64,000 nucleotides of DNA from Polynucleobacter sp. AP-Reno-20A-A9 (lineage in GTDB: Bacteria; Pseudomonadota; Gammaproteobacteria; Burkholderiales; Burkholderiaceae), in NCBI RefSeq assembly GCF_018882085.1, contig NZ_JACVPB010000003.1, positions 124,001-188,000 on the forward strand, written 5' to 3'. A program made the translations under genes and the position numbers. Every line of letters begins with the position of its first letter. Position 1 is the first letter of the stretch. Below the pieces are notes generated by a model. It was given only the letters and a program-made list of their open reading frames with translations, was not told the origin of the DNA and made no database searches. Below, piece after piece: positions 27,366 to 31,530 of the stretch.

Positions 27366-28466
27366 TTACAAAGTTGGGTAATCTGTATAGCCTACTTCCT
27401 CGCCACCATAAAAAGTAGCGCGGTTATATGGATTTAGTGTGGCACCCTGCTGGAATCTCTCTGCTAGATCTGGATTAGAAATGTAGAGACGGCCGTAAGC
27501 AACTGCATCAGCCAGACCATCCTCTAACACCTTCTCACCCATTGCCTGGTCATAGCCACCAGCAGTGATGAATTTCCCTTGATAAGCGGCACGGAACAAC
27601 TCTGAAGTAATAGGCGCATCTTCCAAGACTTGATCGCCACCACCAGCGCTAGTTGAGCGTGGCTCAATCATATGCACATAAGCTAAGTTATAGCCATTGA
27701 GCTTCTCAATTGCGGCAGTGAACAATGCCACTGGATTGCTATCCCCCATATCATTGAAGGTGCCGTATGGTGAAAGGCGAACTCCCACTTTATCGCTCGG
27801 GAATACTTTACTTACAGCTTCAATGACTTGACCCAATAAGCGCAAGCGATTTTCAATAGAGCCGCCATACTCATCTGTGCGCTGATTAGTTTTATCTTGC
27901 AAGAACTGATCCAGCAAGTAGCCGTTAGCTGAGTGAATCTCAATACCATCAAAGCCTGCAGCTTTTGCATTTTGTGCTGCCGCCTCAAACTCTTTGAGTA
28001 AGCGAGCGATATCTTCCAAACTCATTGCCGTTGGAGTCTCGTAGTTATGGAGCTTCCAATCTGCGCCATAGGTTTGACCTTCTGCAGCAATTGCTGAGGG
28101 TGCCTCAGGCGCACCCTGCTCTGGATGCAAGGAAGAATGGGAGATACGCCCAACGTGCCATAACTGCGCAACAATCGCACCACCCTTAGCATGAACTCCC
28201 TCAACAATCTCTTTCCATGCAGCAGTTTGTTGCGCTGAATAAATCCCAGGCGTCGCTGGGTAACCCTTACCCAACGGAGAAATCTGTGTTGCCTCAGTAA
28301 TGATGAGTCCGGCACTCGCACGTTGCGCGTAATAGATCTTCGCTAAGGGGTTAGGCACATCACCAGCAATCGCACGCATTCTAGTGAGTGGCGCCATTAC
28401 TAAACGGTTTTTTAAATGAAGTGCTCCGAGATTTACCGGAGTGAACATGATTTCTTTGCCTGACAT
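27366..28466 (-). CDS. nemA: Old-yellow-enzyme family alkene/nitroester reductase
   Basis: A 366-residue FMN ene-reductase using NAD(P)H to reduce activated alkenes, quinones or nitro compounds. Signature parts: FTPVNLGALHLKNRLVMAPLTR, IITEATQISPLGKGY, QLWHVGRISH, IEIHSANGYLLDQFLQDKTN, and NRLRLLGQVIEAV. The start ATG 28466 (MSGKEIMFT) has AAGG 7 nt upstream; the long in-frame extension to 28568 would overlap oxyR and is not family-like. It is downstream of oxyR on the same strand, separated by 71 nt, so it may be part of the oxidative or electrophile response. Confidence 0.9.
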   Translation of the reverse strand: MSGKEIMFTPVNLGALHLKNRLVMAPLTRMRAIAGDVPNPLAKIYYAQRASAGLIITEATQISPLGKGYPATPGIYSAQQTAAWKEIVEGVHAKGGAIVAQLWHVGRISHSSLHPEQGAPEAPSAIAAEGQTYGADWKLHNYETPTAMSLEDIARLLKEFEAAAQNAKAAGFDGIEIHSANGYLLDQFLQDKTNQRTDEYGGSIENRLRLLGQVIEAVSKVFPSDKVGVRLSPYGTFNDMGDSNPVALFTAAIEKLNGYNLAYVHMIEPRSTSAGGGDQVLEDAPITSELFRAAYQGKFITAGGYDQAMGEKVLEDGLADAVAYGRLYISNPDLAERFQQGATLNPYNRATFYGGEEVGYTDYPTL

Positions 28467-28537
28467 TTGCTGCCTTTTAAATAAGTAAAAAGAGGGTTGA
28501 CTGTAACAAGGATTGGTAAATTTTGCTGAATACGCGA

Positions 28538-29443
28538 TTAGGCCGCTCCAAATTGTTCGCGTATGCAATCTGCTAGTGCGTTAAATTCCTGTGTGTGTGC
28601 GGTAGAAGGTCGCGCAACCAAGGCAATGACTCTTTTAGGCGCTGGTGAGGCTAACTCTTTTGCTACTAACTCAGAGTTATTTAATAGACTGCTTTTGACT
28701 GCCATTCCAGGAAGCAAAGCAATCCCAAGTCCAGACTCCACCATTTGCAATAAGGTCAACAAGCTTGTTGCTTCCATTCCTTCAGCTTTACGAATGTCGG
28801 TGCGCTTGCATGCTTGCAAGCTATGCTCTCGCAGACAATGCCCCTCCTCTAACAATAAAAGTCGCTCAGCCATCTTGGCAGGCAAGGTAACCTCTTTTCC
28901 TTTTAGAGCGGGATCACCTTCTTTCGCAACCAACCAAAAATGATCGTCAAATAATTCTTGTACCAGAAGACCCTCTACATCATATGGAAGCGCTATCAAA
29001 GCAAAATCCAATTTATGCTCAGCCAATCTAGACAGTAGATTAGCAGTGAGATCTTCTCTAAGAGTAATTTTAAGTTCTGGAAAACGACTGCGAATTTCTG
29101 GAAGCACTGTTGGCAATAAAAATGGTGCAATCGTTGGTATGACGCCTAAACGAATTGTGGCAGTCATGGGTTTGCCGGTTGCACCCGCATACTCCACTAA
29201 ATCTTCAGATGCTGCCAAGATCAGCTTGGCACGCTCCAGAACTTCTAATCCCATTGGAGTAATAGATACATTCTGCCGATCACGCTCTACCAAATGTATT
29301 CCCAATGCTTCTTCCAACTCCTTCAGGCCCGCGCTTAAAGTCGATTGGCCGACAAAACAGGCTTGGGCTGCACGCGTGAAATTGAGCTCTTTGGCTAATG
29401 CGACGAAATACCCCAGCTGCCTTAAAGACGGTAAATAAGCCAT
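28538..29443 (-). CDS. oxyR: OxyR hydrogen-peroxide-sensing LysR-type regulator
   Basis: A 301-residue transcription factor. The N-terminal LysR helix-turn-helix includes LRQLGYFVALAKELNFTRAAQ and QSTLSAGLKELE. The C-terminal domain holds both redox Cys of OxyR: LLLLEEGHCLREHSLQAC, Cys203 and Cys212, nine apart as Cys199 and Cys208 of E. coli. This supports a true disulfide-switch OxyR rather than a generic LysR. ATG 29443 has GGAG 5 nt upstream. It is divergent from rubrerythrin, with a two-part OxyR-like site between them. Confidence 0.92.
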   Translation of the reverse strand: MAYLPSLRQLGYFVALAKELNFTRAAQACFVGQSTLSAGLKELEEALGIHLVERDRQNVSITPMGLEVLERAKLILAASEDLVEYAGATGKPMTATIRLGVIPTIAPFLLPTVLPEIRSRFPELKITLREDLTANLLSRLAEHKLDFALIALPYDVEGLLVQELFDDHFWLVAKEGDPALKGKEVTLPAKMAERLLLLEEGHCLREHSLQACKRTDIRKAEGMEATSLLTLLQMVESGLGIALLPGMAVKSSLLNNSELVAKELASPAPKRVIALVARPSTAHTQEFNALADCIREQFGAA

Positions 29444-29464
29444 TTTCACTCCATTATCGAATAA

Positions 29465-29501
29465 TTAGATTAATACTATCATAATGATTCATTAGACTGA
29501 T
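29465..29501. promoter_or_regulatory. Candidate OxyR operator between oxyR and rubrerythrin
   Basis: Compared with the tetrameric OxyR pattern ATAGnTnnnAnCTAT-N7-ATAGnTnnnAnCTAT, the half-sites TTAGATTAATACTAT (29465-29479) and ATTCATTAGACTGAT (29487-29501) match 8 of 10 and 6 of 10 defined positions with exactly 7 nt between them. The site is 22 nt from the oxyR start and 86 nt from the rubrerythrin start, suiting autoregulation plus activation. Confidence 0.55.
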
Positions 29502-29587
29502 CAATAAATAAGGCGCACACTGCATTCATCGTTGAGAAAGCAGTAAAGAAGACTCAACAAACTGAATGTAATTTGAAAGGAATCAAA

Positions 29588-30073
29588 ATGGCACGTCCAG
29601 AAATCAAAACCATCCAAAACTTAGAGTCCGCCTTTGCCGGCGAATCCATGGCTCACATTAAGTATCGTTACTTTGCCAAGTTAGCTCGCGCTGCTGGCGA
29701 CGAAGAAACCGCAAGGATCTTTCAAGCTACCGCTGACCAAGAAGTGATGCACGCTTTTGGCCACTTAGACTTACTTTACCCTGCTGGCACCGTTACTCCA
29801 GCAAGAGCCTTAGAGATTGCTATTGAAGGCGAAACTTATGAATACACTGAAATGTATCCATCCTTTCGGAAAACAGCCGTAGAAGAAGGCAATGCTGCGG
29901 CCATACAAGAAATTGATGAGCAAATTGCGGAATCTAAAGAGCATGCTGAGCAATTTCAGGCGGTATTGACTAAAGCAGCAAAACGCTTCGCTGCGTTAGC
30001 AAACGTTGAAGAGCGTCACGCAAACCATTACAAGCAAGCTCTGGCAAAAGCGAAGGTTTTTGCAGCCCAATAA
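29588..30073 (+). CDS. rbr: Rubrerythrin (ferritin-like di-iron domain only)
   Basis: A 161-residue non-haem di-iron protein that reduces hydrogen peroxide. Four-helix-bundle ligand motifs are visible: LESAFAGESMAHIKYR, TADQEVMHAFGH, ALEIAIEGETYEYTEMYP and VEERHANHYKQAL. The C-terminal rubredoxin domain of classical rubrerythrins is missing; instead a separate rubredoxin gene follows 61 nt downstream. ATG 29588 is preceded by AAGGAATCAAA. Divergent from oxyR, probably under its control. Confidence 0.92.
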   Translation: MARPEIKTIQNLESAFAGESMAHIKYRYFAKLARAAGDEETARIFQATADQEVMHAFGHLDLLYPAGTVTPARALEIAIEGETYEYTEMYPSFRKTAVEEGNAAAIQEIDEQIAESKEHAEQFQAVLTKAAKRFAALANVEERHANHYKQALAKAKVFAAQ

Positions 30074-30134
30074 GACGGGCCCAGAAAGAATTAGAAATTA
30101 AATTTAAAATCAGCAGACTATTTAAGGAATCAAA

Positions 30135-30302
30135 ATGAACACTTACCAATGTATCGTATGCGGCTATATTTACGACGAAGCAAAAGGGATCCCAGAAGAT
30201 GGCATTCCGGCCGGAACACTTTGGGCTGATGTCCCAGAAGATTGGGAATGCCCTGACTGCGGTGTTGCAAAGGCCGACTTTGAGATGGTTCAAGTAAGCT
30301 AA
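30135..30302 (+). CDS. rubA: Rubredoxin
   Basis: A 55-residue electron carrier with one Fe(Cys)4 centre. Ligands are in [15 protein letters not shown] and [14 protein letters not shown], the standard CxxCG ... CPxCG pair, with the usual [13 protein letters not shown] between. The leader AAGGAATCAAAATG is identical to that of rubrerythrin. It should pass electrons from the reductase encoded next to rubrerythrin. Confidence 0.95.
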
Positions 30303-30360
30303 GTCCACTTCTGCGTTCCTTACCACTTTTTTACCTACTCGTTATTTGGAGAGCCCAGCT

Positions 30361-31530
30361 TTGGATCAAACCACCCCCCAATCCCAATCCGCAATTGTCA
30401 TCATTGGTAGCGGATTAGCTGGCTACACGGTTATCCGTGAAATTCGAAAATTGGATAAAGCAGCCCCAATTACGCTGGTGACACGTGAACCCGGTTATTT
30501 TTATTCAAAGCCCATGCTTTCTACCGCTCTTGCGAGCAAGAAAGAGGCGGTGCAATTAATCTCTACACCAGCTGATGGCATGGCAACGCAATTAGAGATG
30601 ACTATCTTGGGTGAGTGTGATGTCATCTCAATCAATCCTGGCGCGCAAACCATTCAAACTAGTAAAGGTGAGGTTCCTTATGGAAAACTGGTAATGGCAT
30701 TGGGTGCCGACCAAACTCGCCTCCCACTTCAAGGGAACGCTGCTAACGAAGTTATCACAGTAAATGATCTAGAAGACTATGTACGCTTTCGCAATGCAAT
30801 CACTGGAAAAAAGAAGATTACCATCCTGGGTGCAGGCCTGATTGGCTGTGAATTTGCCAACGATCTTGTGCTGGGTGGTTATGAGGTAGATGTGATTGAC
30901 CTGGCTCCACAGGCTCTAGGTCGCCTCTTGCCCGAAGCTGCAGCTCTAGAGCTGCAAGGAAAACTCAGTGCAGCTGGTGTACGTTGGCATCTTTCTACAA
31001 CCGTGCAAGCGATTGATCGTCACGGAGATTCTTTACAGGTCATACTGGCCAATGGCAACACAATCTCTTGCGATGTATTTTTATCAGCTGTTGGCCTAAA
31101 GCCAAGAATTGAATTAGCTAAAGCAAGCGGCATTAATACGGAAACTGGTATTCAGGTAAACCGTGAACTCGAAACCAATATTAAAAACATTTTCGCAATT
31201 GGAGATTGCGCAGAGGTAGATGGTTTGGTTCTGCCTTATGTCATGCCGATTATGCAAGCGGCAAGAGCATTGGCGCCTACCTTAATTGGACAAACTACCT
31301 CACTTACCTATCCTGCGATGCCGGTGATGGTCAAAACCCCCGCATTAGCCACCATCGTTTCTCCGCCAGCTCAAGGCATAGAAGGTAAGTGGACCACAAC
31401 ACCTGTTGAAGGTGGCCTGGAGTCTCGTTTTGAATCTAGTGATGGCAAGTTATTGGGCTTTGTATTAATGGGAGCCGCCACTTCACAACGTGGCGCCCTC
31501 ACTAAGGAGCTGCCGGCTATTCTGGCTTAA
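30361..31530 (+). CDS. FAD-dependent rubredoxin reductase
   Basis: A 389-residue pyridine-nucleotide-disulfide-type flavoprotein expected to transfer electrons from NAD(P)H to rubredoxin. It has the N-terminal FAD motif IVIIGSGLAGYTVIREI, the NAD motif ITILGAGLIGCEFANDL at about residues 150-166, and the second FAD motif NIFAIGDCAEVDG. The first FAD region ends GYFYSKPMLSTAL, as in rubredoxin reductases. TTG 30361 is chosen because GGAGAG (30348-30353) lies 7 nt before it. Third gene of the rubrerythrin unit; a strong terminator follows. Confidence 0.88.
   Translation: MDQTTPQSQSAIVIIGSGLAGYTVIREIRKLDKAAPITLVTREPGYFYSKPMLSTALASKKEAVQLISTPADGMATQLEMTILGECDVISINPGAQTIQTSKGEVPYGKLVMALGADQTRLPLQGNAANEVITVNDLEDYVRFRNAITGKKKITILGAGLIGCEFANDLVLGGYEVDVIDLAPQALGRLLPEAAALELQGKLSAAGVRWHLSTTVQAIDRHGDSLQVILANGNTISCDVFLSAVGLKPRIELAKASGINTETGIQVNRELETNIKNIFAIGDCAEVDGLVLPYVMPIMQAARALAPTLIGQTTSLTYPAMPVMVKTPALATIVSPPAQGIEGKWTTTPVEGGLESRFESSDGKLLGFVLMGAATSQRGALTKELPAILA

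Follow-up and report, generated by a model that had tools for sequence, protein, structure and literature searches.

Does a rubrerythrin gene that lies back to back with oxyR in an aerobic bacterium belong to a peroxide-reducing system under OxyR control, and would such a system be an anaerobe's chemistry in an aerobe's genome? The question is raised by a 64-kb stretch (hereafter, the window) of the 2.18-Mb, 43-contig genome of Polynucleobacter sp. AP-Reno-20A-A9, a member of a freshwater genus described as often abundant (PMC7522526). Here oxyR, on the reverse strand, diverges from genes for rubrerythrin (rbr), rubredoxin and rubredoxin reductase on the forward strand. Our favored reading, to which we assign a probability of about 0.72 based on sequence comparison, is that the locus is an OxyR-controlled peroxide-reducing divergon with an NAD(P)H-fed rubrerythrin chain. 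OxyR control and peroxide reduction are likely because the intergenic site is conserved and tetramer-spaced, the same element precedes ahpCF, ahpCF or katG occupies the position of rbr in related lineages, and a probable counterpart of the rubrerythrin is raised by ultraviolet (UV) light. Comparison among relatives gives good support to the genes and to the predicted regulatory link as real.

Gene content and regulatory site

A preliminary description of this DNA had proposed that oxyR, with both redox cysteines, is divergent from genes for rubrerythrin, rubredoxin and rubredoxin reductase. All four genes are confirmed, as are cysteines C203 and C212, and the locus comprises the following features.

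28538–29443, reverse strand: oxyR (OxyR-A type), a LysR-family peroxide sensor with C203 and C212 (family match, cysteine columns)
29456–29492, no strand assigned: OxyR-type 37-bp element, ATC-N9-GAT-N7-ATC-N9-CAT, two dyads 22 bp apart (alignment, matrix scan)
29492–29497, forward strand: −35-like hexamer of the putative rbr promoter, TTAGAC (TTGGAC in most rbr-type relatives; alignment)
29588–30073, forward strand: rubrerythrin, long one-domain type, 161 residues, predicted peroxidase (Pfam, structure comparison)
30096–30108, forward strand: leader element AATTAAATTTAAA ahead of rubredoxin (conservation across loci)
30135–30302, forward strand: rubredoxin, 55 residues, CxxC-N29-CxxC (Pfam, 79.8 against a cut-off of 23)
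30361–31530, forward strand: NAD(P)H:rubredoxin reductase, TTG start (Pfam, solved-structure match)

The two cysteines of the window OxyR (GHC-N8-C), which we take to correspond to the redox pair C199/C208 of Escherichia coli OxyR, are present at both columns in all 95 loci that reach 55% identity or more (66 distinct sequences, that of the window among them) and likewise in 10/10 more distant OxyR loci (34–50% identity). The window protein is the sole match to itself in its own genome at E ≤ 1e-20. Across 121 Polynucleobacter genomes, a set that includes incomplete metagenome-assembled genomes (MAGs), we find two OxyR types: type A, 58–100% identical to that of the window, in 84 genomes, and type B (32–38%) in 55, with both present in 21.

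The oxyR–rbr gap holds a 37-bp element, ATC-N9-GAT-N7-ATC-N9-YAT, conserved across 49 distinct intergenic regions, one of them the window's (87 stretches extracted, 50 distinct, 49 aligned; the omitted one is the 61-bp gap of genome G246, which has a broken rbr). Every aligned region shares the first ATC and the GAT, along with certain columns in the second half, and the 22-bp distance between dyads is that of an OxyR tetramer site. The region previously proposed for OxyR binding, 29465–29501, overlaps this element. With a matrix built from 39 distinct rbr- or rubredoxin-type sites, the window element (its core left out of the matrix) scores 51.6 and the runner-up in the window 0.1, while the best of 30 Markov-shuffled windows reaches 7.5 (window core included) and 20 AT-rich 65-kb sets reach at most 17.0. 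The margins over the runner-up and over the shuffle maximum place the element beyond chance. A −35-like block abutting the site is retained with small changes in the rbr-type alignment rows; a consensus promoter scan gave nothing above shuffles and flagged no promoter at 29492–29497.

The same matrix finds an element ahead of other peroxidase genes. In the window's own genome it matches the upstream region of ahpC (ahpCF) at 24.1 bits, 86 bp ahead of the start (24.3 without the window core), and an ahpC site lies 86–92 bp ahead of the start in 5/5 other species scanned (24.1, 24.1, 19.5, 28.8, and 9.4 bits). Among 12 katG loci of other species, L146, L147, L150, L151, L152, and L158 have a 22–35-bit site 144–316 bp upstream; weaker sites occur at L144 (14.9), L145 (19.6 and 18.5), and L160 (10.6); and L148, L149, and L161 have no matrix site. 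A second match at L144 (25.7 bits) lies away from katG, and the one catalase-type locus examined, L159, has no site. Most rbr upstream regions from other genera give low scores with this Polynucleobacter-derived matrix.

Rubrerythrin and its predicted electron donors

The rbr product (a 166-residue open reading frame from TTG 29573; 161 residues from ATG) matches PF02915 at 59.6 bits against a cut-off of 22.8, and its nearest relatives are sulerythrin and the one-domain rubrerythrins of Burkholderia, so that the label "anaerobe-style" previously given to the system does not fit. Nor does the related suggestion that this rubrerythrin lost its rubredoxin domain: a scan of genome contigs, many of them MAGs, retained 80 loci of 565 relatives, and all 80 rubrerythrins are 156–167 residues long, so none carries a fused rubredoxin. 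The literature describes rubrerythrins without this domain as frequent among aerobes and as an aerobic lineage (PMC5114695, PMC3317640), and a proteobacterial clade without it is placed in a separate "cyanobacterial" group, group 5 (PMC5114695). In the one comparison made on the cyanobacterial side, a plasmid protein was 30% identical to the window rubrerythrin, the plasmid proteins being of another type.

An AlphaFold2 monomer model built from a 36-row alignment (predicted local distance difference test, 89.2; predicted template modeling score, 0.65) has four helices, the last spanning residues 103 to 160, and its residues 4–134 superpose on sulerythrin 1j30 (Z 12.8, 2.4 Å, 43% identity). The ligands of helices A–C, E19, E52, H55, E82, and E85 (E, ExxH, ExxE), are invariant in the 36 rows and in 80 rows from viruses, except H55, which is kept in 79/80. 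In helix D, E115-S-x-x-H119 occupies the place of the sulerythrin ExxH, and a canonical ExxH (E141, H144) follows 25 residues later on an overhanging helix; both Glu/His sets are invariant in all 36 bacterial and 80 virus rows. Either E115/H119 or E141/H144 could be the metal set of helix D, a choice for the dimer that lies beyond a monomer model. The second PF02915 match in the same genome was set aside by eye as Coq7-like rather than a rubrerythrin because of its BioB neighbor and its sequence.

The reductase gene has GGAG ahead of its TTG start at 30361. Its product exceeds the cut-offs of both Pyr_redox_2 (PF07992) and the C-terminal rubredoxin-binding domain PF18113 (Rbx_binding, 76.9 against 22.1), and its best solved match is the rubredoxin reductase of Pseudomonas aeruginosa (2v3a, E 3.9e-106). 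The nearest named loci belong to Polynucleobacter, with rubrerythrins 94–96% identical and gene order identical. Gene order is also kept more widely. The retained loci come from Polynucleobacter, Rhodoferax, Limnohabitans, Aromatoleum, Zoogloea, Gallionella, Alkanindiges, and others, and where enough sequence was available rubredoxin follows rbr in 76/76 and the reductase follows in 70/73, an order found in other Betaproteobacteria as well. An OxyR-like gene is divergent from rbr in 34/76 loci (29 at ≥50% identity and five at 35–37% with both cysteines).

Peroxidase genes opposite oxyR

Intact rbr of the window type (rbr-A) is present in 42/121 genomes, all 42 of which carry oxyR-A (kinship not corrected), and the order oxyR, then rbr–rubredoxin–reductase, holds in 17/17 Polynucleobacter loci examined with intact rbr. 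In diverged type-A lineages, oxyR-A is instead divergent from ahpC–ahpF in 3/3 loci followed gene by gene (L100, L101, L103) and from ahpC in L102; by coordinates, it is divergent from an ahpC-type gene in G174, G193, G190, and G254 and from katG in G260. One peroxide sensor gene faces three kinds of peroxide-removing genes within one genus. The preliminary description had suggested looking for katG and ahpC: the genome holds both KatG and AhpCF, and we found no PF00199 catalase in it. Together with the conserved site and its counterpart ahead of ahpCF, this exchange of peroxidase genes bears out the proposal of OxyR control, at the level of sequence comparison.

At L105 (G177) and L106 (G173), a second rubrerythrin type, rbr-B (about 145 residues), is found together with DUF3501 and a CCG Fe-S protein; the second OxyR type and ahpC–ahpF are close by in L105. 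Across genomes, rbr-B is accompanied by oxyR-B in 45/47 cases (kinship not corrected). A locus of the DUF3501/Fe-S type (group 4), both genes of which adjoin rbr-B, was ruled out for the window, where neither gives a tblastn match.

Directly downstream of oxyR and on the same strand, here and in many relatives, is an old-yellow-enzyme gene (N-ethylmaleimide reductase family, 27366–28568), a possible further OxyR-linked gene. Downstream of the reductase, on the opposite strand, are genes for a Urate_ox_N-like protein and an Fe superoxide dismutase.

Proposed mechanism and expression evidence

In the mechanism we propose, an OxyR tetramer would occupy the intergenic 37-bp element, and oxidation of C203/C212 by H2O2 would turn OxyR into an activator of the rightward promoter, the −35 hexamer of which adjoins this element; binding and induction are predicted from the site and its conservation. 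Electrons would pass from NAD(P)H to rubredoxin reductase, through its flavin adenine dinucleotide, then to rubredoxin, to diiron rubrerythrin and to H2O2, with the direction of flow, the peroxidase activity, and the coenzyme predicted from the chemistry of the protein families. This chain would work alongside KatG and AhpCF, the latter also preceded by an OxyR-type site. Our literature search found no paper joining rubrerythrin, rubredoxin reductase and OxyR.

Proteome data from a related species are consistent with a stress role. In P. asymbioticus, rubrerythrin is Pnuc_1376 and rubredoxin is the next tag, Pnuc_1377 (PMC3308952); since rubredoxin bears the adjoining tag, Pnuc_1376 is probably the same gene as the window rbr. 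Its product ranks third among the 50 proteins with the strongest rise under UV (log2 +6.52; Table 1C of PMC7522526, where a sub-heading is misprinted but the running text agrees) and stands outside the top 50 given for cold (PMC7522526).

Several observations weigh against an OxyR-controlled peroxidase. On the regulatory side, the window OxyR scores 222.2 bits against an NCBIfam OxyR cut-off of 329, although this is still its best match among the models listed; no matrix site lies ahead of katG in the window's own genome; and 42/76 loci of the genome-contig scan have no oxyR beside rbr. On the enzymatic side, helix D carries Ser at the position of the sulerythrin Glu ligand. As for expression, the identity of Pnuc_1376 with the window gene rests on the neighboring tag, a response to UV is neither a peroxide nor an oxyR-mutant result, AhpC-type proteins rose only mildly under UV (+0.65 to +1.34), and several of the top UV proteins also rose in the cold sample (PMC7522526). 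Finally, 28 of 70 "window-like" oxyR-A genomes have no intact rbr-A, although G094 and G246 still hold broken copies, and compensation by katG for this loss was rejected as an explanation, katG being present in 17/42 genomes with rbr-A and 13/28 without (P = 0.63, kinship not corrected). The window-like set was obtained by setting aside by hand 14 of the 84 oxyR-A genomes (oxyR 58–68% identical, none with rbr-A); identity alone gives no sharp cut, and G200 and G209 (66–68%, with rbr) were retained.

Repeated loss of rubrerythrin and alternative readings

On a tree of OxyR, the state of rbr changes 11 times, at least six of them forced by well-supported branches (56 rows, five from outside the genus, with long outgroup branches; the two broken rbr copies scored as absent). 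The reductase gene stays 121–1154 bp from oxyR in 28/28 window-like genomes without intact rbr-A, with stops in two of them (five in G164, one in G256). Among 14 rbr-less loci examined, the reductase is present in 14/14 and rubredoxin in 12/14, and over all genomes the reductase is found in 96/121, 55 of which have no rbr-A. The leader AATTAAATTTAAA ahead of rubredoxin is exact in 26/41 rbr-plus and 4/12 rbr-less loci and one change off in a further 6 and 4, respectively. The preliminary description had spoken of a complete peroxide-reducing chain. Its gene order, kept in other Betaproteobacteria, and the UV-raised protein favor that view, which is weakened as far as a single unit is meant because rubrerythrin alone was lost many times. 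Since rbr was lost repeatedly while the reductase gene stayed beside oxyR, rubredoxin and its reductase probably serve a second client besides rubrerythrin.

Two decaying genomes show rbr in the course of breakdown. In L116 (G094) and L117 (G246), rbr is split or carries stops and flanking metabolic genes are broken, while oxyR, rubredoxin, and reductase are free of stops. In G246 the 61-bp oxyR–rbr gap has cut the OxyR site.

These patterns bear most directly on the strongest competing explanation, in which OxyR is linked mainly to rubredoxin and its reductase, these two feed another acceptor (an alkane hydroxylase, or some diiron or repair enzyme), and rubrerythrin is an optional client. We regard this as unlikely but deserving of serious attention: the frequent changes of rbr with the reductase constantly near oxyR, the rubredoxin retained in most rbr-less loci, the many reductase-bearing genomes without rbr-A, the leader exact or one change off in 8/12 rbr-less loci, and the two decaying genomes are all as it would predict. 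Yet no alkane hydroxylase was recognized in the window's own genome, where both FA_desaturase matches were judged by eye to be ordinary desaturases, and the rbr–rubredoxin pairing persists in other bacteria and in viruses. The supposed core is also imperfect: besides the two reductases with stops, rubredoxin was not found in G204 (L095), just 121 bp separate oxyR from the reductase in G259, and among the 14 diverged genomes set aside, the reductase lies beside oxyR only in G244.

Another explanation, which we consider improbable, is that the conserved site serves autoregulation of oxyR only, with rbr constitutive or under iron or other control. Consistent with it, the rbr-less loci L090, L096, L097, L098, and L104 keep the OxyR core without the TTGGACTGAT block of the rbr promoter, and scan loci without an adjacent oxyR mostly have no clear site (L216 and L239 reach 17.4). 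However, the −35-like block next to the site persists, slightly altered, in the rbr-type rows of the alignment, and the element also stands ahead of ahpC. Least probable, by a small margin in our estimation, is that the rubrerythrin is an iron-oxidizing, iron-holding, or sensing protein rather than a peroxidase, a role to which its ferritin-like fold and its atypical helix D, bearing a pair of invariant Glu/His sets, would lend themselves but against which stand the rubredoxin and reductase genes that come next and the reduction of peroxides by the one-domain relative ferriperoxin (PMC3317640).

Rubrerythrin–rubredoxin pairs on virus contigs

A scan of viral contigs (IMG/VR) returned at least 563 relatives, of which 80 were kept (L242–L321; 61–67% identical to the window rubrerythrin). 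By tblastn, a rubredoxin-like stretch lies downstream of rbr in 77/80, and the remaining three (L261, L278, L286) have at most 45 bases after rbr; a stricter rubredoxin pattern (two CxxC pairs, 20–40 residues apart) is found in 52/80. In a quick tree, 27 sampled virus rubrerythrins form one clade (Shimodaira–Hasegawa-like approximate likelihood ratio test, 100), with the bacterial rows not on a single side of a branch. Terminase was found in 9/37 virus records searched, including 6/7 of at least 100 kb. Among INPHARED phages only distant rubrerythrin matches occur (8 records), and PHROGs returned no family for either protein of the pair; a rubrerythrin gene has been reported from a silage virome (PMC10146946). 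Judging from these contigs, tailed phages may carry the rbr–rubredoxin half as a stable gene pair, perhaps to blunt peroxide during infection. One 264-kb viral-classed contig, in which no terminase was found, has near its rubrerythrin a porin-like gene that, judged by eye, resembles those of Betaproteobacteria (L249:1201-2385).

Comparison with known systems

If the favored reading holds, a diiron, rubredoxin-fed peroxidase joins the enzymes likely commanded by OxyR, with different peroxidases facing one sensor gene. Experiments can now address what keeps rubrerythrin in an aerobe already equipped with KatG and AhpCF, which other proteins rubredoxin supplies, and the reason for carriage of the gene pair by phages. 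We tentatively suggest, at somewhat less than even odds, that this is a distinct rubrerythrin system, marked by a separate rubredoxin, a helix D with two ligand sets, an OxyR cassette alternating with ahpCF and katG, a rubredoxin/reductase core for a second client, and a phage-borne half.

A close functional parallel comes from Pyrococcus furiosus, where, as Weinberg reportedly described in 2004, a separate rubredoxin and an NADH:rubredoxin reductase feed a rubrerythrin peroxidase, as an NAD(P)H-dependent reductase is predicted to do here. P. furiosus is an anaerobic archaeon not known to have OxyR, and its rubrerythrin has its own rubredoxin domain, whereas the window enzyme is one-domain and oxyR is adjacent. 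The oxyR–ahpCF divergons, which sister lineages have at the same oxyR, likewise set OxyR divergent from an NADH flavoenzyme and a peroxidase; here a putative diiron peroxidase with a rubredoxin carrier replaces the thiol peroxidase. The rubredoxin–rubredoxin reductase pair of P. aeruginosa (2v3a, 2v3b), a shuttle for alkane oxidation, provides the solved reductase closest to that of the window. Sulerythrin and ferriperoxin share aerobic hosts, the same fold, and the lack of a rubredoxin domain with the window rubrerythrin, but their genes are described as adjoining DUF3501 and an Fe-S oxidoreductase (PMC5114695, PMC3317640), whereas the window gene adjoins rubredoxin and reductase and its product has about 25 extra C-terminal residues. 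Ferriperoxin is reported to reduce peroxides with NADPH and a ferredoxin reductase (PMC3317640). The proteobacterial clade of group 5, as described, resembles the window protein in its host phylum and in having no rubredoxin domain (PMC5114695). Set beside these systems, the locus is a new form of the oxyR–peroxidase divergon rather than an anaerobe's system in an aerobe.

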